This document shows, piece by piece, positions 37,038-48,257 of a DNA stretch of 64,000 bases. The notes beneath the pieces were generated by a model, which saw nothing but the letters and a program-made list of their open reading frames with translations, was not told the DNA's origin and did no database searches. Numbering within the stretch: position 1 is the stretch's first letter; each line of letters starts with the position of its first letter. The translations under genes and the position numbers were made by a program. Location of the stretch: positions 1 to 64,000 of the forward strand of contig NZ_JAJTHI010000004.1 in assembly GCF_021298855.1 (NCBI RefSeq). The letters run 5' to 3'. This stretch comes from Gemmatimonas sp. Lineage in GTDB: Bacteria > Gemmatimonadota > Gemmatimonadetes > Gemmatimonadales > Gemmatimonadaceae.

Positions 37038-37418
37038 ATGGCTGAACGACGCCCGAGCCCCGGAGAACCCATCGCCCGCCGCGCTGCTGCGCTGGCCAGC
37101 GACCTCAAGGCCACCGATATCGTGGTCCTCGATCTCCGCGGGGTGACGGACATGACCGACTTTTTTGTTATTGCGTCCGGGACCTCCGACACCCACGTCC
37201 GGGCGGTCGCCGAGCACATCCAGGCAGGGTTGAAGCAGGGTGGCGTGTCTACCACCATGACCGAAGGACTCACGCAGGGGCGGTGGGCGCTGCTCGACTA
37301 TGCCGACTGCGTGATTCACGTTTTCCATCCCACCTTGCGGCAGTTCTACCAGCTCGAACGGTTGTGGGGCGATGCCACACCGGTGCAGCTGGACGCCGAA
37401 ATCACGCAGGGAGCATAA
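37038..37418 (+). CDS. rsfS: Ribosomal silencing factor RsfS (Iojap/DUF143)
   Basis: A 126-residue RsfS. Family motifs: DLKATDIVVLDLRGVTDMTD, FFVIASGTSDTHVRAVAEHI, then GRWALLDYADCVIHVFHPTL and RQFYQLERLWGDA. RsfS binds L14 and blocks subunit joining during starvation. I chose the ATG at 37038, before the conserved helix; an upstream in-frame extension is not family-like. Its stop is followed four bases later by a large metallopeptidase/barrel gene, so they are likely co-transcribed. Confidence 0.92.
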   Translation: MAERRPSPGEPIARRAAALASDLKATDIVVLDLRGVTDMTDFFVIASGTSDTHVRAVAEHIQAGLKQGGVSTTMTEGLTQGRWALLDYADCVIHVFHPTLRQFYQLERLWGDATPVQLDAEITQGA

Positions 37419-37422
37419 ACGC

Positions 37423-40400
37423 ATGGCGCAGGCGACGCGGTGGTCTCGATTCGGCAGGGTACTCTTGGTCGCGGCCGCCGCGCTCGGTGCCTCGGCGTCG
37501 CTCACGCCGGCGCAGGCCCAGTTCTTCGGGCAGAACCAGGTCCAGTATGACCGCATGGATTGGCGGGTCATCGAGACCGAGCACTTTCTGGTGCACTACT
37601 ACCCGCAGATCGCCGACGTCGCCCCCGACGCCGCGCGCATGTCGGAGCGGGCCTACGCCCGGCTGTCGCGGCTCACGGCACACCAGTTCCGCGAAAAGAA
37701 GCCCATCCTCATCTTCGGCTCGTCGGGTGACTTCGCCCAGAGCAACGTCTTTGGCGACCTGGGTGAAGGCACCGGCGGTGTGACCGACCCGCTGCGCCAG
37801 CGCATGGCGCAGTTCTTCAGCGGCGACTGGGCCAGCTTCGAACACGTGCTCATTCACGAAATGGTGCACGTGTTCACCTTCGATATTTTCTCGCGCGGGC
37901 GCGCGGGGGCGGGGCTGCAGAACCTCGCCATGGTGAACCCGCCGCTTTGGTACATGGAAGGGCTCGCCGAGTATCTCTCGATCGGGCCCGTTCATCCATG
38001 GACCGACGCCTGGGTGCGCGACGCGATCGTGAACAACACGCTCCCCACCATCGCACAGATGACGGAGCGCCCCGACAAGTACTTCCCCTACCGCTACGGC
38101 CTCGCGCTCTGGCAGTACGTGGGCGCGCGCTGGGGCGACGAGGTCATTGGCGAGATCATGAACGCCACGCCCAGCCTCGGCATCGACCGGGCGTTCCGTC
38201 GGGAGATCGGCCTGTCGCTGGATGAACTGAGCGCCGACTGGAAGGCGGCCATGCAGGCCAAGTACCTCACGGCGGTCGCCAACCTCGACCGTCCGCGCAG
38301 CTTCGCCGAACCGCTGCTCACGCAGCCGCGCACGGGCGGCTTTGCCAACACGTACGTGGCGCCGGCGCTCTCCCCCGACGGCAAGTACATCACGTACGTG
38401 GGCTACGGCAGCCTCCTGCGCGGCGAGGTGTTCCCCGAGCTGTATCTGGCCGACGTGGCCACCGGCAAGCGCCTCAAGCGGCTGGTCAAGACCACCACCA
38501 ACCCCGACTACGAGCAGCTGCGTTTCATTTACTCGCAGCCCTCGTTCAGCCCCGATGGCAAGCTGCTGGCCTTCACCGGGCAGCGCGGGGGACGCGATGT
38601 CCTGTACGTGCTCGATGTCGCGCGTCGCAAGGTGGTGAAGGACTTCGACTTCGAAATGGACCAGGTGCTGAGCCCCAGCTTTTCACCCGACGGGCGTCGC
38701 ATCGTGTTCAGCGGCATGCGGCGGGGCACCAGCGATCTGTACGTCGCCTCCATGGATACCCCGGGCTTCGTGCAGCTCATGAAGGACACCTACGGGGACC
38801 TGTCGCCGTCGTGGTCGCCCGACGGCCGGCAAATCGCGTTCGTGACCGAGCGCGGCCCCGACACGGACATGGAGATTCTCAAGGTCGGACCGTGGCGGGT
38901 GGCGATCTACGATTTCGACACGCAGAAGACCACGCTGCTTCCCAACCAGGGCGGGCGCAACATCAATCCGCAGTGGGCGCCCGACGGCAAGTCGCTGGCG
39001 TTCATCTCCGATCGGACGGGGATCGCCAACATCTTCCTGTACGACTTCGCCGATGGCGAGCATTACCAGCTGACGAACGTGCTGGGGGCCGTGACCGCCA
39101 CGGCCGAGCAGTCACCGGCGCTCACCTGGGCGCGCGGCGCCGATCTCATGGCGTTCGTGTATTACGAAAAGACCGACCACTCGATCTGGAAGATCGAGAA
39201 CCCGCGCAAGCTCAGGAAGCAGCCCTATCGCGACCCGGTGGTGGTGGCGCAGGCGCAGCGGGCGGCGCAGCTGGGCGCGCGGCCCACCGTGCCGCTGGAT
39301 CCCACGGCGCACCTGCGTCGCGCCACCGTGCAGGACACGGCGGCCGCGCGCCAGTCGTTCTATCGCCCCGTCACGGGCGCCACGGCGCGTCAGTCGTCGG
39401 AGCTCCCGGCCACGCTGCTGGCCCGGCAGGCCGAGACGATCAGCGTGAAGGCGATGCTCGACAGCTTCGACTTCAACCTGCCCGATACCACGCGCCTGTC
39501 GGACTCGCGCTACAAGGGGAAGCTCACCCCCGAGTACGTGGCGCAGCCCAGCATCGGCTTTCAGCAGGGCGGATTCGGCCAGGGGACCTTCGGCGGCACC
39601 ACCATCGTGCTGAGCGACCTGCTGGGGAACCGGCGGCTGGCGCTGTCGGGGTCCATCAACGGACAGCTGAGTGATGCGCAGGTGTTCGTGGGGTACACGA
39701 GCCTGGGGCGCCGGCTGCAGTACACCACCGGCGTCATTCAGCAACCGCTCTATCTCGTGTCGGGGTTCTTCGAAACGCCGCAGCAGGGCAGCCAGACGCA
39801 GTTCGTGCAGACGCAGGAGATTACGCGCCTCGTGGTCCGGCAGATGTTCGCGGCGGGGCTGTATCCGCTCAACCGGTTCACCCGCTTCGAACTGGGCGCG
39901 CGCTTCCAGAACGTGGACCAGCAGGTGTTCTCGTTCAACCGTCTGGTGGACTACAACCTCGGGTTCGCGACCGGGTTCGAACGCGGGCCCACGCGCAACG
40001 TGGCCTCGGCCAACACCGTGTCCCCGTACCTGGCGTGGGTTACCGACAACACCATGTTCGGCTTCACGGGGCCCATTTCGGGACGACGGGCGCGCATCGA
40101 GGTGGAACCGAGCGTGGGCACGTGGCGATGGACGGAGTACATGGCGGACGCCCGCTCGTACGTGCCCATCCTCTTCAACTACGTGACCTTCGCCACGCGC
40201 TTCACCACCAGCATGTCGGTGGGCCGTGACGAGGCGCGTTTCCCCAAGTGGATTGGGCGCCCCGATTTCGTGCGCGGCTACAACCGCGAGGATATCGGCA
40301 CGGTGGGGTGCACCGGGCTCCCCAGCGACAACGGCAGCAGCTGCAGCAGTGCGGAGCTGATCGGCAGCCGCGTGGCCTTCGGCAACGCGGAGCTGCGCTT

Positions 40401-40692
40401 CCCCATCCTGCGCCGCTACGGCAACCGCACCAACCTGCTGGGCGGCCTCCCGCCGGTGGATGGCCTGTTCTTCTACGACGCCGGTGTGGCGTGGTCGCAG
40501 GGGCAGAGCGTGACGTTCACGCGCGGGGACCGCTACAACGTGGACACCCAGCGTGCCCTGCTCCAGAGCTATGGCTTCGGCCTGCGCATGAACCTGTTCG
40601 GGATTGCCATCATCCGCTGGGATTGGGCGGTTCCGGTCAGCCGACCGGGGGCGCGCGGCTTCGGGACCTGGTTTTTCGGCGCCTCGTACTGA
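37423..40692 (+). CDS. Metallopeptidase-propeller-BamA-like barrel fusion protein
   Basis: A 1089-residue exported protein with three parts. After a signal peptide (ends near PAQAQF), residues 50-270 resemble MA-clan peptidases with His145-Glu-Met-Val-His149 and Glu179 in WYMEGLAEY. Residues about 300-620 hold TolB-like PD40 propeller repeats (SPDGKYITYVG, SPDGKLLAFTG, SPDGRRIVFSG, SPDGRQIAFVT, APDGKSLAFIS). The last 380 residues look like an Omp85/BamA-type barrel, with GRPDFVRGYN and a final strand ending in Tyr (WFFGASY). It is probably surface- or periplasm-exposed, anchored in the outer membrane. Substrate unknown. The metal-site assignment is firm; barrel class is moderately sure. Confidence 0.82.
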   Translation: MAQATRWSRFGRVLLVAAAALGASASLTPAQAQFFGQNQVQYDRMDWRVIETEHFLVHYYPQIADVAPDAARMSERAYARLSRLTAHQFREKKPILIFGSSGDFAQSNVFGDLGEGTGGVTDPLRQRMAQFFSGDWASFEHVLIHEMVHVFTFDIFSRGRAGAGLQNLAMVNPPLWYMEGLAEYLSIGPVHPWTDAWVRDAIVNNTLPTIAQMTERPDKYFPYRYGLALWQYVGARWGDEVIGEIMNATPSLGIDRAFRREIGLSLDELSADWKAAMQAKYLTAVANLDRPRSFAEPLLTQPRTGGFANTYVAPALSPDGKYITYVGYGSLLRGEVFPELYLADVATGKRLKRLVKTTTNPDYEQLRFIYSQPSFSPDGKLLAFTGQRGGRDVLYVLDVARRKVVKDFDFEMDQVLSPSFSPDGRRIVFSGMRRGTSDLYVASMDTPGFVQLMKDTYGDLSPSWSPDGRQIAFVTERGPDTDMEILKVGPWRVAIYDFDTQKTTLLPNQGGRNINPQWAPDGKSLAFISDRTGIANIFLYDFADGEHYQLTNVLGAVTATAEQSPALTWARGADLMAFVYYEKTDHSIWKIENPRKLRKQPYRDPVVVAQAQRAAQLGARPTVPLDPTAHLRRATVQDTAAARQSFYRPVTGATARQSSELPATLLARQAETISVKAMLDSFDFNLPDTTRLSDSRYKGKLTPEYVAQPSIGFQQGGFGQGTFGGTTIVLSDLLGNRRLALSGSINGQLSDAQVFVGYTSLGRRLQYTTGVIQQPLYLVSGFFETPQQGSQTQFVQTQEITRLVVRQMFAAGLYPLNRFTRFELGARFQNVDQQVFSFNRLVDYNLGFATGFERGPTRNVASANTVSPYLAWVTDNTMFGFTGPISGRRARIEVEPSVGTWRWTEYMADARSYVPILFNYVTFATRFTTSMSVGRDEARFPKWIGRPDFVRGYNREDIGTVGCTGLPSDNGSSCSSAELIGSRVAFGNAELRFPILRRYGNRTNLLGGLPPVDGLFFYDAGVAWSQGQSVTFTRGDRYNVDTQRALLQSYGFGLRMNLFGIAIIRWDWAVPVSRPGARGFGTWFFGASY

Positions 40693-40760: not shown

Positions 40761-42251
40761 GTGCGCACGCTCATCGCGTCGGCGCTCGTGCTCCTCGCGT
40801 GCGGCTGCGGTGACGGCTCGTCCCGCCCCTCTGGAGCCGACGCCCCTCCCAGCATCCCCGGTGGTCCCGATCCCATTGTGCTGCGCGTCGCGCGCACTGG
40901 GGGCGTGCTCACGGCTGCGCGCTATCCGGCCCTCGACAGTACCCTCTGGCGCTCTGCCGCCCGCCTGCCGGCGCTCGGGCACATCGTCGGGTTCGGGGCG
41001 GACGACGGCTATCTGGCGGCCGTCGACACCAGCGGGGCCCCGGTCCGGGTGGACCTGCGGCTCGGCACAGTGAGCCCCGTGCGCGGCGACACCGTACGCA
41101 CCGTCTCGTCGGCCGACGGCGGTTCCATTTTCGGACTCATGGCGAACGGCGAGATCGCCCGCTTCACGCCCAGCGGGAGCGACTGGCGCATGACCCCGCC
41201 GCTCCCGGCGCAGGCCCTCTACGCCCAGGCCGACGGGTCCCTCATTGTTGCCGGCGCACGCAACGACTGGGTGGTGGTGTGGCGCGTTCGCCCGCCGCAG
41301 CGCACCGTTTCCGACAGCCTCTCCTTTGCCGTGGGGAGTACCGAGGCTGCCATTGCGCAGGCGCTGCAACGCACCGCCGGGAGCGTGGGCGACCGGGTCT
41401 TTGCCGGCGCCGGCGATCGGGTGCTGGCCGTGCGGGTGCGCGATCTGGGGCAGGCGCTCGATGTGGACATCGGCGATCCGGTGCAGGCCATTGCGGCCAC
41501 CCCCAGCGGTGACCGCCTCTTCGTCGCGGTGGCCGGCGAGGCGGAGCTGCGCGTGGTCGACCGTTTCCAGGAGGGCGTGACCGGCACCATCGATCTCCCC
41601 GGCGCCGTGCGGGCATTGCGCATGGATCCCCTGGGGCGGGTGCTGCTGGCCCGCGGGAACGGCGACTCGGTGTTCGTGGTGAGCCTGGCCAGCGACGACG
41701 TGATCGGCGTGGTGCGTTCCGAGTGGCGCGGCGACCTGCCGCTGGTGCTCCCCGACGCGGCCATCGCCATCACGCGCGGGGCGGATGTGGTGTTTGCCCA
41801 TCCGCGCACGCTCAAGGACATGCAGGTGGTGGCCGATGGTGCACGGAGCTTCTGGCACACGTTGCGGTGGAACGGCTTCCGTCCGCGGGCCGCCGGGCTC
41901 GACCAGCCGGTGCAGTTCCGTACGAGTGCGCCCCGCGATTCGGCCGATCTGCTCCCCGACAGCCTGCGCGCGCCCGCCGACAGCGCGGCCATGCCCACCG
42001 ACAGCACGTCGCCGGTCACGGTCGCCGCGCAGTACACGGTATCGTTTGCGGCCAGTCTCGACGAGGCACAGGCCCGGGCGCTGGCCGCGCGCATTCGCGT
42101 GGACGGGCAGACCCCGCGCATCACGACGTCTGAACGTGAGGGCAAGACCCTGTATCGCGTCGTGCTCGGTCCGTTCCCCACGCGCGCCGATGCCGACCGC
42201 GTGGGCAAGGCATCAGGACAGAGTTATTGGGTCTTCGGGGGGGTGCCATGA
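40761..42251 (+). CDS. SPOR-domain lipoprotein with propeller-like domain
   Basis: A 496-residue predicted lipoprotein. A GTG start is followed by a signal sequence with lipobox LACGC. The central region (about 60-400) has repeated beta segments such as GDRVLAVRVRDLGQ and GDRLFVAVAGEAELRVVDRF that suggest a propeller. The last 75 residues are a SPOR domain (YTVSFAASLDEAQARALAAR, then YRVVLGPFPTRADADRVGKA), which binds denuded glycan strands of septal peptidoglycan. The stop overlaps the next gene's ATG (ATGA). Location in the envelope at the division site is therefore likely. It is in one string with smc. Confidence 0.8.
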   Translation: MRTLIASALVLLACGCGDGSSRPSGADAPPSIPGGPDPIVLRVARTGGVLTAARYPALDSTLWRSAARLPALGHIVGFGADDGYLAAVDTSGAPVRVDLRLGTVSPVRGDTVRTVSSADGGSIFGLMANGEIARFTPSGSDWRMTPPLPAQALYAQADGSLIVAGARNDWVVVWRVRPPQRTVSDSLSFAVGSTEAAIAQALQRTAGSVGDRVFAGAGDRVLAVRVRDLGQALDVDIGDPVQAIAATPSGDRLFVAVAGEAELRVVDRFQEGVTGTIDLPGAVRALRMDPLGRVLLARGNGDSVFVVSLASDDVIGVVRSEWRGDLPLVLPDAAIAITRGADVVFAHPRTLKDMQVVADGARSFWHTLRWNGFRPRAAGLDQPVQFRTSAPRDSADLLPDSLRAPADSAAMPTDSTSPVTVAAQYTVSFAASLDEAQARALAARIRVDGQTPRITTSEREGKTLYRVVLGPFPTRADADRVGKASGQSYWVFGGVP

Positions 42252-43654
42252 CCGCCCCCGGTTCGTTGCTTGCCCCCTGGGAAGTAGAGGGGCGTCGTCA
42301 GGCGCCGCTGCTCGACGGGGTGTGCGCGGTGGTCATCGCGGCCACTGACCCGTCCATTGCCGTGAGCATGGCCGTGGGGATCGCCCGCGCGCAGGGGCAG
42401 CGCCGCCGAGTCGCCATCGCCGATCTCATCGGCGAGGCACCGGCCATTGAATCGCAACTCATCGGCGACGACCCGCACGGTATTGCGGACAGCTTCCTGT
42501 ACGGGGTATCGCTCAACAGGATCGCGCGCCCCATGCAGGGCACCGACCACGTGTTCCTCATGCCCAGCGGCACCGAAGCGGTGGATCACCGCGAGATGTA
42601 CGCGCACGAGCGGTGGCGTCGCCTCGCCGCGGGCTTCCATCAGGTGGGCGCGCTGCTGGTGGTGGTGGCCCGTCCGCAGGTTGACGGATTCGCCGAGTTG
42701 TGCGGACACATCGGGGCCCTCATGCCAGTGGGTGACACGGTCTTTCCCACCCCCGCCGGCATTCCGCTCATTGCCCCGCCGGCGCCGCCACCGCCGCCAC
42801 CGCCGCCAGTGGAAGGCGAGGCCACTCCCCCCAAGCGCGAAAGCAAGGCGCGCGCCCGTGAAGTGGCGCAGCAGCCGGTGGAAAGCCGGTCGCGGCTGCG
42901 CTGGGTGCTGCTCATCGTCGTGGCGGCCGTGGCCGTGGCGGTGGGTGCCCTGTGGCCGCAGATCGTCGAGCGGCTGCCGGCCTCTTTGACGGCGTTCTTC
43001 GCCACCGCGGTGCCCCCGGTCGACAGCACGGCGGTCGTGGTGCCGCCCACGCCCATGGACACGGTGCCGCAGGCCGACCGCAGCGCCAGCGACTCCGCGG
43101 CCGTCGAGAGCGATTCCGCCCGCAGCGACAGCGCGGCCACAGAGGGGTCCGCCGCCACGACGCTGAGTGTGGGCAATCCCGCGGACTCGGCCAACGCGTC
43201 GCGCTTTGCGGTGTACTTTGCCACCGCGAACACGCGGGCCGGCGCCATGCCCGACCCCAAGGTGCGGGCCCTCGAGGCCGTGGCGTTGTCGCCCGTCATG
43301 GAGGGCAACGAGCAGTGGTATCGCGTCACGGTAGGCGCCGCCTCGGCGCGCACCGACGCGGAACAGCTGCTGGCGCGGCTGCGCGCCGACAAGGTGATTG
43401 GCTCGGGGAGCATCGTCTCGGTCCCCTTTGCCTTCCGTATTGAATCGAAGGTCACCGAATCGCTGGTGCCCACACGCCTCGCCGTGCTGGCCACCCGTGG
43501 CATCATGGCCTACGCGCTCCGTCAAGCCGACGGGAGTGCCACCATCTACACCGGCGCGTTCGAGTCGCCCACGCAGGCGACCGCGCTGGCGGATTCCCTG
43601 CGCGTCGCCGGTGTCGCGCCGGTGCTGGTCTATCGAACGGGGAGAGGGTTCTAG
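42248..43654 (+). CDS. Membrane-anchored SPOR protein with degenerate MinD/ParA-like N-terminus
   Basis: A 468-residue protein. Residues 20-165 look like a MinD/ParA-type Rossmann domain (VCAVVIAATDPSIAVSMAVG, RRVAIADLIGEAPAIESQLI, VGALLVVVARPQVDGFAELC). The Walker A is missing: where KGGVGKT is expected it reads AATDPSIA. A Pro run (178-187), a basic linker and one transmembrane helix (217-236) follow. Then comes an Asp/Ser-rich linker and two SPOR-like repeats (about 319-395 and 405-465). The N-terminus would be cytosolic and the SPOR part periplasmic. Both ends overlap neighbours (ATGA; TAGTG with smc). The MinD comparison is by eye and tentative. Confidence 0.7.
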   Translation: MTAPGSLLAPWEVEGRRQAPLLDGVCAVVIAATDPSIAVSMAVGIARAQGQRRRVAIADLIGEAPAIESQLIGDDPHGIADSFLYGVSLNRIARPMQGTDHVFLMPSGTEAVDHREMYAHERWRRLAAGFHQVGALLVVVARPQVDGFAELCGHIGALMPVGDTVFPTPAGIPLIAPPAPPPPPPPPVEGEATPPKRESKARAREVAQQPVESRSRLRWVLLIVVAAVAVAVGALWPQIVERLPASLTAFFATAVPPVDSTAVVVPPTPMDTVPQADRSASDSAAVESDSARSDSAATEGSAATTLSVGNPADSANASRFAVYFATANTRAGAMPDPKVRALEAVALSPVMEGNEQWYRVTVGAASARTDAEQLLARLRADKVIGSGSIVSVPFAFRIESKVTESLVPTRLAVLATRGIMAYALRQADGSATIYTGAFESPTQATALADSLRVAGVAPVLVYRTGRGF

Positions 43655-46600
43655 TGCGTCTGACGAAGCTCGAGGTCCATGGCTTCAAGGCCTTTGCCGA
43701 TCACCTGGAGTTCGTGTTCGAGAAAGGGGTGACGGCGATCGTCGGCCCCAACGGCTCCGGCAAGTCGAACGTCTCGGACGCGGTGCGCTGGGTGCTGGGC
43801 GAGCAACGGGCGCGCGCGATGCGTGGCGCCAAGATGGAAGACGTCATCTTCCACGGCTCCTCGGCGCGCAAGCCGGTGAACATGGCGGAAGTGTCGCTCC
43901 ACTTCGACAACACCGAAGGCGAGCTGCCCATTCCGTTCAAGGAAGTCGTGATCACCCGGCGCCTGCTGCGCAGCGGCGAAAGCGAGTATCTGCTCAACCG
44001 TGCCCCGTGCCGGCTGCGCGACATTCAGGATCTCGTGCGCGGAACCGGTCTGGGTGCCGATTCCGGGGTGGTGATCGAGAGCAAGATGATCGACGCGCTG
44101 CTCTCCGACCGCCCCGACGAACGGCGTGAGCTGTTCGAGGAAGCGGCGGGGGTGGGGCTCTATCGCGACCGCCGCCGCAGCGCCGAGCGGCGTCTCGAGG
44201 AAACCACCACCGACCTCGCGCGCCTCGACGACCTGATCAACGAAGTGCAGAGCCAGGTGCGTTCGCTCGCGCGGCAGCGCCGCCGCGCCGAACGTCACGC
44301 CGAACTCACGTCGCGCCGCTTCGCCGTGGAGATCTCGCTGGCCGTGCGGGAGATGGCCGCGTGGAAGGACGAACTGGAAGCGCTCGACGGGCGCCTCGAG
44401 GTGCTGCGCGGCGAACTGCCGGGAGCGGACGAGGCCATTGCCGCCGCCGAGCTGCAGCGCGAGGACGCCCACGCCGCGCGCGGGGCCGCCGAAGCGCGCC
44501 GCGTGGAGCTGGCGCGGCTGGCTGCGGAGCAGCGGGACACGACGCAGCGCCTCGAGCGGGATCTGGCCGTGGCGGAAGAGCGCCAGCGCAGCACGACCAT
44601 GCGCAAGCAGCGGGCGGAGCAGGAACGCGAGGAGAACGAGGCGTTCGGACGCCGGCTGCGCGAGGATCGTGAGAAGGCGGCGACGGACCGCACCACCTTG
44701 GAGCAGGAGCTGCGCGATGCCGGGGAGGCCCTGCAGCAGCGCCTCGCGGCCGAGCAGCTGGCGCGTGAGTCGGTGCAGCGCGCCCGCGCGGCCCTCGACC
44801 AGCTCGAACGTCAGGTGCGCGAGCACCGTGATCAGGCCCGGCGCATCGAACTCGATCGTGACGGCGCGGCGCGTGAACAGGGCGACACGCAGCAGCGCCG
44901 CGAAGCGCTCGACGTGGAACGGCAGAACCTGGCCGACGCGCTCGATGCCATTGAACGGGAGCTGATCAGCGCACGCGAGCAGGTGCAGCTGACGCACGAG
45001 GCGGCGCAGGACGCCATGCACGAGCTGGAAGGCGCGCGTCTCGCCGCCGCCACCGCGCGCACCGCCGACGCGGAGTCGCGCGCCATGCTGGCCAACGCCG
45101 TGGCGCTGCGCACCAACCTCGAAGGCAAGCGGAATGCGCTGGCCGCCCTCGAGCGGGAGCGCGTGGGGCTGGCGCCGTCGGCCGCGAAGCTGCTCAAGGA
45201 GCGCGAGCGCTTCGGCGACGGGGCCGTGCTGGGGCCGCTCACCGACTTCCTCACCGCCGACGGCGACACGGCGAGGCTGGTGGAGCGGTATCTCGGGGCC
45301 ACGATGCACGCCATCGTCGTGCGTGATGCCCGTGCGGCCGCCGCCGTGCGCCAGTGGCATGCGCAGGCGCAGCCCGGCCCCATTCTGCTGCTGCCGCTCG
45401 ATGTGGTGGCGGAGATGGGGGCGCTCGAGGGAGCGCTGGCGGGGAGCGTGCAGTCGCAGGGGCCGGCCGCGCGCTGGGTGCAGGCGCTGCTGGGCAAGGT
45501 GCGCGCCCTCGACGGTGGCGATGCCTTCGTGGACGAGCGCGGCGCCGTGTACCTGCCGGGCAATGCGGGCGGTCCGGGACCGCTGCAGCGTCGCGCCGAG
45601 CTCACGCGCCTGGAAAGCGACCTCGCCGCCGCCGATGCGCAGCGCGATGAAGCGGCGCTCGCGGCCGACGCGGCGCGCCTCGCCCTCACCGAGGCCGAGC
45701 GCACGCAGCAGCTGGCCATGGAGAACAACAACCGGGCGCAGCAGGAGGCGCGGCGCGCGGTGGAAGTGCAGAACGAAGTGGAGCGGCGGCGCGAGCGTGC
45801 CGAGCGGGAACTCGCGCAGTCCAGCGCGCTGGCCGAGCGGCTGGTGGCGCGCCTGGAAGAGCTCGAGTTGCGCACGCGGCAGCTGGCGCAGCAGGCCGAG
45901 GCGCTGCACGCCCGCGCCGGCGAAGCCGACACCGACATCACGACCGCCCGCGAAGCGTTGAGCGTGGCCGAACGCGAACAGGAGCAGGCGCGTGAAGGGC
46001 GGGCCACCTGGCAGGTGGCGCAGGCACAGGCCCAGGCGCGGCTCAGCGTGGCGGTCGATCGCGAGAAGCGATTGCTGGAAGAAGACAGCACGGCGGCGGC
46101 GCGCATGGCCGCGCTGGCCACTGAGCTGTCCACGTTGAGCGAGGCCGATCAGCACCTGGCGCAGCAGCTCGACGGCTGGCGCACGGAGCTCGAGACGGAG
46201 CAGAAGAACCTGGCCGACGCCGACGGGCGCCTGGCGGAGGCGGAGCGCGCGGTGGCCGCGGCTACGCACGCCAGCGACCGCTGCGAGAGCCTGCTGGATG
46301 AGGCGCGGCGTCGGGCCACCGCCCTTGGCGAGCAGCTGCATGGCGCGCAGTTGCGCCATACGGAGCTGGCTGGTCGCCGGGAGAACATCACGTCGCGCCT
46401 CGAAACCGAGTGGCGCCGCTCGCTCGACGACCTGCTTGCCGGCTTCGCGGAGCTGGAGCTCACGACCGACGAATTGCGCACCGAGGCGGCCACGTTGCGC
46501 AGCGCGCTCGACGAGTTGGGTCCCGTGAATCCACTGGCCATCGAGGAGCACGAGGAGGAGCAGCGGCGCCTCGAGTTCCTCACGAGCCAGCGCAACGACC

Positions 46601-47214
46601 TGGTCGCGGCCAAGCAGTCGCTGCACCAGGCCATTCGCGAAATCGACAGCACGGCGCGCGAACTCTTCCTGGCCACCTTCTCGCAGGTGCGCGAGAATTT
46701 CCGGCAGATCTTCCTGCGCATGTTCGGCGGTGGCGAGTGCGACCTGCGGCTCGAGAACCCCGACGCGCCGCTCGACTGCGACATCGAGGTGCATGCGTCG
46801 CCGCGCGGCAAGAAGACGCAGCGCATTCACCTGCTCTCCAGTGGGGAACGTGCCCTCGTGGCGCTGTCGCTGCTCTTCGGCATCTTCCTCACCAAGCCCA
46901 GCCCCTTCTGCCTCATGGACGAAGTGGACGCGCCGCTCGATGACCAGAACATCGGGCGCTTCGTGAAGATGCTCAACGACTTCAAGACGCGGACACAGTT
47001 CATCGTCATCACGCACAATCCGCGCACCACGTCGGAAGCGGCCGATGCCGTGTACGGCGTGACGATGCAGGAGCCCGGCGTGTCGAGCATCGTGAGCGTG
47101 CGGCTGCGCAACGGGCCGTCCATCGACGAGGACGGCGCCGACACGCCCGAAACGGCCACCGACGGGGACGGTGAGGCCGACGTGGCCCCGGAAGCGGAAC
47201 CCTCGCCGGCGTGA
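43654..47214 (+). CDS. smc: Chromosome segregation protein SMC
   Basis: A full-length 1186-residue SMC. MRLTKLEVHGFKAFADHLEF and Walker A GPNGSGKS (residues 31-38) form the N-terminal head. The coiled coil has an Arg/Glu/Ala-rich heptad pattern, with the hinge at about 500-640 (GPLTDFLTADGDTARLVERY). The C-terminal head has the ABC signature LLSSGERALVALSLLFGIF and Walker B PFCLMDEVDAPLDDQN, then D-loop and H-loop sequence FIVITHNPRTTSEAA. SMC with ScpAB organises and segregates chromosomes. The GTG start overlaps the preceding stop by one base (TAGTG); the stop overlaps the next start (GTGA). No scpA or scpB is in view. Confidence 0.96.
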   Translation: MRLTKLEVHGFKAFADHLEFVFEKGVTAIVGPNGSGKSNVSDAVRWVLGEQRARAMRGAKMEDVIFHGSSARKPVNMAEVSLHFDNTEGELPIPFKEVVITRRLLRSGESEYLLNRAPCRLRDIQDLVRGTGLGADSGVVIESKMIDALLSDRPDERRELFEEAAGVGLYRDRRRSAERRLEETTTDLARLDDLINEVQSQVRSLARQRRRAERHAELTSRRFAVEISLAVREMAAWKDELEALDGRLEVLRGELPGADEAIAAAELQREDAHAARGAAEARRVELARLAAEQRDTTQRLERDLAVAEERQRSTTMRKQRAEQEREENEAFGRRLREDREKAATDRTTLEQELRDAGEALQQRLAAEQLARESVQRARAALDQLERQVREHRDQARRIELDRDGAAREQGDTQQRREALDVERQNLADALDAIERELISAREQVQLTHEAAQDAMHELEGARLAAATARTADAESRAMLANAVALRTNLEGKRNALAALERERVGLAPSAAKLLKERERFGDGAVLGPLTDFLTADGDTARLVERYLGATMHAIVVRDARAAAAVRQWHAQAQPGPILLLPLDVVAEMGALEGALAGSVQSQGPAARWVQALLGKVRALDGGDAFVDERGAVYLPGNAGGPGPLQRRAELTRLESDLAAADAQRDEAALAADAARLALTEAERTQQLAMENNNRAQQEARRAVEVQNEVERRRERAERELAQSSALAERLVARLEELELRTRQLAQQAEALHARAGEADTDITTAREALSVAEREQEQAREGRATWQVAQAQAQARLSVAVDREKRLLEEDSTAAARMAALATELSTLSEADQHLAQQLDGWRTELETEQKNLADADGRLAEAERAVAAATHASDRCESLLDEARRRATALGEQLHGAQLRHTELAGRRENITSRLETEWRRSLDDLLAGFAELELTTDELRTEAATLRSALDELGPVNPLAIEEHEEEQRRLEFLTSQRNDLVAAKQSLHQAIREIDSTARELFLATFSQVRENFRQIFLRMFGGGECDLRLENPDAPLDCDIEVHASPRGKKTQRIHLLSSGERALVALSLLFGIFLTKPSPFCLMDEVDAPLDDQNIGRFVKMLNDFKTRTQFIVITHNPRTTSEAADAVYGVTMQEPGVSSIVSVRLRNGPSIDEDGADTPETATDGDGEADVAPEAEPSPA

Positions 47215-48257
47215 CCGGACTGCCGCGGGGGAAAGGACGGGGGGCGATCCTGCGGCGATGGCTGCTGGCGGGGCTCGCCCCCTCCGCGTTGGAGGCGCAG
47301 GCGGTGTTCGTGGATGGCCCCACCACGCAGCCGCTGCCTTCCATCACGCCGGCGCTGCAGGTGCGTGCCGTGGGCCTGGGGCCGGGCCCCATTCAGTACA
47401 CGGTGCAGATTGCCACGGTGGCCGACTATTCGGCGCTGGTGCTCGACAGCACTTTCACCGCCACCGACACCGCGCTCACCGTCCAGGTGACGCGGCCGCT
47501 GCCCAGCGAGGCTACCGTGTACTGGCGGGTGCTGGCCCGGGGGGCACTGGGGGCCCAGGCAACCTCGGTGAACTCCGGGGCACGTGTGGTGCCACCGTGG
47601 CTCACGCTCGTCTCCCCCAATTCGCCCGCCGGCAACGCCTTCGACATTCGGCGGCCGCTGTTCGTGTGGCGCAGTGCCCGCGTCACCCCCGCCGCGGGAT
47701 CATGGCGCTACGATCTCGAGGTCCTGGGGGCCGGACGACCGGAACTCGGCGTCACCAGCCTGCGCGATACCACCTATCGTCCGGCCACCGACCTGCAGGC
47801 CAACACCTCGTATCGCTGGAACGTGCGGGCCTCCCTGGGCAACGGCGAGAGCGTTCGCGTGGCGAGCGTGGGCTCGTTCGTGATCACCGACCCGCCGCTC
47901 CCCACCACGACGCTGCTGTACCAGAACTTTCCCAATCCGTTTCCCAGTGCGGCCTCGTTCGTCACCTGCTTCTGGTTCGACGTGGGAGCACCGGGTGCGC
48001 GCGTGGCGCTCGATGTGCTCGACCTGCGCGGCAACCTGGTGAAGAACATCGTGCCCGGCTCTGATGGCGTGAGCCGGTTCGACGCCGGGCGCTACGGGCG
48101 CGGCGCCGCCGGCTCGGCCAGCAACTGCGACAACCGATTCGTCTGGGACGGGACGGGGACCGACGGCCGCACCGTGGCGCCCGGGGTGTACCTCGCGCGT
48201 TTTCGCGCGGACGGAGGGGCGCCCACCTTCCGGCGCATCGTGTTCCGCGGGCGCTGA
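47211..48257 (+). CDS. Secreted protein with FlgD-like C-terminal domain
   Basis: A 348-residue protein that begins at a GTG overlapping the smc stop. The N-terminus is basic then hydrophobic (RRWLLAGLAPSALEAQA), a probable signal peptide. Fn3-like beta domains fill about residues 35-225. The C-terminal 110 residues contain YQNFPNPFPSAASF and a closing APGVYLARFRADGG, a FlgD-Ig/type IX-sorting-like module common in secreted proteins of Bacteroidota and Gemmatimonadota. It may be a surface protein. Why it is coupled to smc is unclear. Confidence 0.72.
   Translation: MTGLPRGKGRGAILRRWLLAGLAPSALEAQAVFVDGPTTQPLPSITPALQVRAVGLGPGPIQYTVQIATVADYSALVLDSTFTATDTALTVQVTRPLPSEATVYWRVLARGALGAQATSVNSGARVVPPWLTLVSPNSPAGNAFDIRRPLFVWRSARVTPAAGSWRYDLEVLGAGRPELGVTSLRDTTYRPATDLQANTSYRWNVRASLGNGESVRVASVGSFVITDPPLPTTTLLYQNFPNPFPSAASFVTCFWFDVGAPGARVALDVLDLRGNLVKNIVPGSDGVSRFDAGRYGRGAAGSASNCDNRFVWDGTGTDGRTVAPGVYLARFRADGGAPTFRRIVFRGR

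Follow-up and report, generated by a model that had tools for sequence, protein, structure and literature searches.

We find that the gene directly upstream of smc in a 64,000-nucleotide stretch of a Gemmatimonas sp. genome (contig NZ_JAJTHI010000004.1, positions 1 to 64,000; hereafter the window) encodes a bitopic protein, here referred to as gene 2, whose cytosolic domain is, as judged by sequence profiles, a BY pseudokinase that is joined by a single transmembrane helix to a pair of periplasmic SPOR domains. The explanation that we favor, with moderate confidence, is that gene 2 is a septum-anchored scaffold of the FtsN/DedD/DamX type, in which the pseudokinase would serve as the cytosolic adaptor.

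Gene 2 (42248..43654, + strand; ATG start, TAG stop; 468 aa) is the middle one of three genes that overlap by one to four bases, as an earlier sequence-only reading of this DNA had noticed. It shares the 4 nt ATGA (42248..42251, +) with the preceding gene 1 (40761..42251, +; GTG start, TGA stop), an overlap that is kept in relatives, and a single nucleotide (43654..43654, +) within TAGTG with the following gene of the chromosome condensin (smc; 43654..47214, +; GTG start), whose product is a full-length bacterial SMC (TIGR02168, 5.3e-259). A gene for ScpA is present elsewhere in the same genome (C64). The gene downstream of smc, which starts at 47211, overlaps it by 4 nt as well; this gene (47211-48257, +) is a conserved neighbor of smc in the genus and, by eye, has a C-terminal FlgD-like Ig domain. 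Antisense to nearly all of smc runs an open frame of 1121 aa (43651-47016, −), probably a by-product of codon usage at high G+C. Upstream of gene 1 lies the gene of a 1106-aa protein (37372-40692, +), in which a zinc-protease-like motif (HEMVH), TolB-like propeller repeats, and an outer-membrane-barrel-like C-terminal end are visible by eye; it is a member of the operon through the order and is lost in parts of the class.

The cytosolic domain of gene 2 comprises residues ~25-165 (42320..42742, +), as delimited by profile searches, hhalign, and a motif table. Its relationship is revealed by family profiles only; the single sequence of the domain matches nothing, and the window protein alone, searched against Pfam and the PDB, yielded SPOR or chance matches only. 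The profile of the N-domain (A4) matched the BY-kinases BceF (2.7e-11), Wzc (1.7e-9), VpsO (3.5e-8), Etk (2.4e-7), and CapB (~1e-5) in the PDB, and more weakly ParA (7e-4) and the MinD-like proteins FlhG and FleN (0.0045-0.018). The tyrosine autokinase model TIGR03018 of NCBIfam was matched by 24 of 46 gene 2 homologues scanned singly (best 5.6e-8) and by 20 of the 27 N-domains of a broader collection; in the reverse direction, the BY-kinase model TIGR01007 found the gene 2 loci of two genomes (G042 and G044) in whole-genome scans. An hhalign comparison of the N-domain with the BY-kinases of Gemmatimonadota gave 98.1% over 140 columns, with 20 column shuffles and the reversed alignment at ≤0.4% and four unrelated families at ≤4.5% as controls, whereas ParA, considered as the closest relative, reached 8.7% and was rejected. 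By its profile the domain is thus placed in the MinD superfamily, on the BY-kinase (Wzc/CapB/BceF) branch. The sequence-only reading had described a MinD/ParA-like domain and had made its proposal dependent on a fold of the ParA/MinD family: the superfamily holds, whereas the branch has to be revised, as the BY-kinases are closer than ParA and MinD.

The same reading had stated that the P-loop is missing, and this extends to the whole family: in a joint alignment of 61 homologues, the Walker A lysine (mostly replaced by alanine) and the Walker B aspartate are retained in 0/61 each, which led us to reject gene 2 as an active ATPase. Neither the Walker A motif GxxGxGK[ST] of BY-kinases in these 61 homologues nor the deviant Walker A motif KGGxGK[ST] of MinD/ParA ATPases in any of the homologues compared was found; a P-loop regex match in one homologue (L112) lies, by alignment position, in a region of the domain unrelated to the motif. 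The first aspartate of Walker A′ (D59) is kept in 61/61, and the second is lost in most and kept in L103. The N-domain of the window protein contains only two tyrosines (FLYGVS and EMYAHE), followed by a Pro-rich stretch, and the C-terminal tyrosine cluster of BY-kinases was not found in this protein. D59, G78, D81, G108, and W123 are invariant across families, so the surface of the N-domain is under selection without catalysis.

The one strong hydrophobic helix of gene 2, in agreement with the single membrane helix read from the sequence earlier, spans residues ~218-239 (42899..42964, +; hydropathy peak 2.53, charge count); a weaker hydrophobic stretch at residues 21-46 corresponds to the first core strand of the cytosolic domain. 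Because the 23 residues before the helix contain 8 K/R versus 3 D/E, the protein is assigned an N-in/C-out topology, and residues 1 to ~217 are cytosolic according to the positive-inside rule. Behind the helix, a Pro/Ser/Asp-rich linker leads to the predicted periplasmic SPOR pair (residues ~319-466; 43202..43645, +), which Pfam detects as two stretches (3.7e-10) and which matches the structures of DedD, FtsN, DamX, and CwlC; the orthologues of G103 and G051 give two clearly separate SPOR matches each, as anticipated by the two repeats of the sequence-only reading. Gene 2 has the layout of the bitopic SPOR proteins, with an N-in single helix and periplasmic SPOR. Orthology to FtsN was rejected: the equivalog model TIGR02223 gave 16.2 bits versus a cut-off of 107.65, and matched the SPOR part only. 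Three SPOR proteins were found in the genome of the window, namely gene 1, gene 2, and a secreted TPR-SPOR protein whose gene adjoins a mutS-like frame; the other readable SPOR proteins in 32 further genomes have a signal peptide and TPR-like repeats, and none is bitopic. No bitopic SPOR protein of the FtsN/DamX kind other than gene 2 was seen, at the sensitivity of Pfam, in any genome inspected.

Gene 1 has a lipobox at residues 11-14 (LLAC; +), with lipobox-like motifs in 41 of 55 homologues, and a C-terminal SPOR domain at residues 424-481 (42030-42203, +; Pfam 3.9e-12). Its family profile (A3) matches the propeller structures of the surface-layer protein 1l0q (4.6e-22) and BamB (~1e-4), and the C-terminal part of this profile matches the SPOR domains of FtsN and DedD. 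Taken together, lipobox, propeller profile, and SPOR matches point to gene 1 most likely being a peptidoglycan-binding lipoprotein with a beta-propeller.

Gene 2 is widespread in the phylum. A protein search found it in 47 of 61 near relatives, and of 121 genomes from the phylum 101 matched its profile; about ten of these matches are weak or are SPOR matches to gene 1 only, which leaves a true count of around 90/121. In named genomes, 61 loci were confirmed, all of them in records labelled Gemmatimonadota/Gemmatimonadetes/Gemmatimonas, Longimicrobiales, or Roseisolibacter, or in unnamed or doubtful MAGs, in a scan with one peptide pattern that relatives outside the phylum could escape. One operon of the Gemmatimonadota type (L133, CALQGY020000074.1) stands on a contig that was deposited under the name Candidatus Kuenenia stuttgartiensis, which is likely a mislabelled or contaminated MAG. 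The operon reads rplI-rsfS-(tolB-like)-(gene 1)-gene 2-smc, and the conservation of gene order on which the sequence-only reading had relied was borne out: every genome of the class in which both genes were mapped, among them 19/19 outside the order, has gene 2 immediately upstream of smc. Across ~50 loci the overlaps show a constancy that exceeds chance: gene 1 and gene 2 almost always share 4 nt, and gene 2 and smc almost always 1 or 4 nt, with 23 of the 49 complete loci showing 1 nt and another 23 showing 4 nt at the gene 2/smc junction.

Gene 2 is also absent from some lineages (family, class, and genus are given by anonymous f- and g-numbers): in genera g11, g13, g21, and others of the order, gene 1 stands directly before smc, and in several f5 genera rsfS does. 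It is consequently no universal division protein and no indispensable FtsN, and we conclude that gene 2 is old, widely kept, and not indispensable. Partial losses demonstrate that its two halves can be parted: the orthologue of G030 (L041:4578-5285, −) has lost the whole pseudokinase domain and kept the helix and SPOR pair, and four f5 proteins (L104, L105, L108, L111) comprise the pseudokinase and helix with no detectable SPOR, still directly before smc. The homologues in class f9 (L099, L100, L101, L115, L116) are 991-1208 aa long, with a very long acidic linker.

The individual parts of gene 2 resemble well-known systems, and their arrangement differs from each of them. FtsN, DedD, and DamX of E. 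coli share the N-in single helix, the long linker, and the C-terminal SPOR domain, and in DamX the cytosolic domain, too, is large and probably folded (PMC7642682), whereas gene 2 has tandem SPOR units, a cytosolic BY-pseudokinase domain, and a gene coupled to smc. With the BY-kinases Wzc, Etk, VpsO, BceF, and CapB/CpsD, its cytosolic domain is homologous over ~100-150 residues and retains the first Walker A′ aspartate together with neighboring Gly and Asp motifs, but it lacks the Walker A lysine, the Walker B aspartate, the tyrosine tail, and the Wzz/PCP part. EcpK of Myxococcus and HfsB of Caulobacter likewise combine a BY-kinase fold with the lack of both catalytic motifs and tyrosine tail, and a scaffold action has been proposed for them (for EcpK, PMC12004946); both are stand-alone partners of polysaccharide co-polymerases, whereas the pseudokinase of gene 2 is fused to a helix and SPOR pair beside smc. 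MinD, ParA, MipZ, and PomZ belong to the same SIMIBI/MinD superfamily at a weaker profile match; gene 2 differs in being fixed in the membrane by its helix and in having no deviant Walker A motif, so it should not perform an ATP-driven dimer cycle or membrane/DNA cycle.

As a septal scaffold, gene 2 would work as follows: The periplasmic SPOR pair would bind the amidase-denuded peptidoglycan of the closing septum, as is known for the SPOR domains of E. coli proteins, which localize at the septum and bind glycans that have been denuded (PMC7642682). The single helix would cross the inner membrane, and the cytosolic domain, with a BY-kinase fold that would have lost ATP binding and autophosphorylation, would offer a fixed surface on which proteins bind, and would thereby recruit a cytosolic partner with a role in the cell cycle to the septum; candidates are FtsA/FtsZ, ParA/ParB, an active BY-kinase, or SMC. 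Gene 2 would be translationally coupled to smc and to gene 1, whose product would probably label this site too, from the side of the outer membrane. The septal location is proposed by analogy with the SPOR family and the scaffold action by analogy with BY pseudokinases. The earlier idea of a device that couples chromosome and septum thereby gains good backing from family knowledge for its septal half, that of a bitopic SPOR protein.

The chromosomal half of this idea is a special case of the scaffold, in which the pseudokinase would bind SMC or origin-near ParB/ParA and the chromosome would be tethered or sensed at the SPOR-marked septum. It draws on the 19/19 adjacency and, within the order, on the translational overlap with smc; moreover, the gene to the left of gene 2 may be rsfS, a tolB-like gene, or gene 1, whereas the one to its right is constantly smc, and in class f9 gene 2 is still found ~3.8-4.5 kb from smc with rplI and rsfS absent from the stretch around the two. 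These f9 genes, however, are convergent on opposite strands with two or three genes (dehydrogenase-like) between them, and a heptosyltransferase-like gene adjoins gene 2 in f9 only. Support from outside comes from the BY-kinase CpsD of Streptococcus pneumoniae, which is found at the division site, binds to ParB, and influences the segregation of chromosomes (PMC4574921), and from the apparent lack of Min, MipZ, PomZ, MapZ, and SsgAB in Gemmatimonadota (PMC11271474); CpsD, though, is an active kinase without SPOR that works in capsule synthesis, and its homology to gene 2 is distant. Furthermore, smc keeps its place after rsfS, in the same operon, where gene 2 has been lost. As gene neighborhood is the sole evidence for SMC, a contact between gene 2 and SMC is possible, and we regard direct coupling as unlikely. 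Its phylum-wide version, in which the pseudokinase would dock SMC or the ParB-origin complex and the SPOR pair would read denuded septal glycans, replacing the missing Min/MipZ/MapZ-type systems, is likewise doubtful.

The same neighborhood could have been inherited with a housekeeping operon, gene 2 being a passenger of the rplI-rsfS-...-smc order with no functional link to smc, which would be compatible with a septal scaffold. The persistence of rplI-rsfS upstream of smc at loci that have lost both SPOR genes (L090-L093) speaks for such a history, but the proximity of gene 2 to smc in f9 away from rplI and rsfS does not, nor do the 4-nt and 1-nt overlaps kept over large divergence, and we consider it a tentative alternative that is rather less than even. 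We think it quite improbable that the cytosolic domain is what remains of a Wzc-like co-polymerase partner and that gene 2 controls the production of wall or surface polysaccharide at the septum, with no role in the cell cycle: the exopolysaccharide tyrosine kinases are the closest families to its N-domain, and EcpK and HfsB, BY pseudokinases already described, work for polysaccharide co-polymerases, but gene 2 has no Wzz/PCP domain, and a partner PCP in a polysaccharide cluster, as EcpK and HfsB have it, was not found, the operon in the class consisting of rplI-rsfS-tolB-like-gene 1-gene 2-smc with the f9 heptosyltransferase-like neighbor as the exception.

A septum-anchored scaffold with a pseudokinase adaptor is, in our assessment, the best account of gene 2, which from its sequence is a good candidate for a link between the division wall and a protein of the cell cycle. 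No earlier report of a fusion between a BY pseudokinase and SPOR was found in the open-licence papers searched: within this literature, BY pseudokinases and SPOR divisome proteins are already known and the fusion is a new combination, which probably takes BY pseudokinases beyond polysaccharide export to cell division. Gemmatimonadota divide by FtsZ-based fission at unusual division-plane positions, and none of the known systems for placing the division site appears to be present in them (PMC11271474). Gene 2, a conserved bitopic protein that pairs a dead MinD-superfamily domain with domains predicted to bind the septal wall and that is encoded directly before smc, offers a concrete candidate for the question of how the division site is chosen in this phylum.
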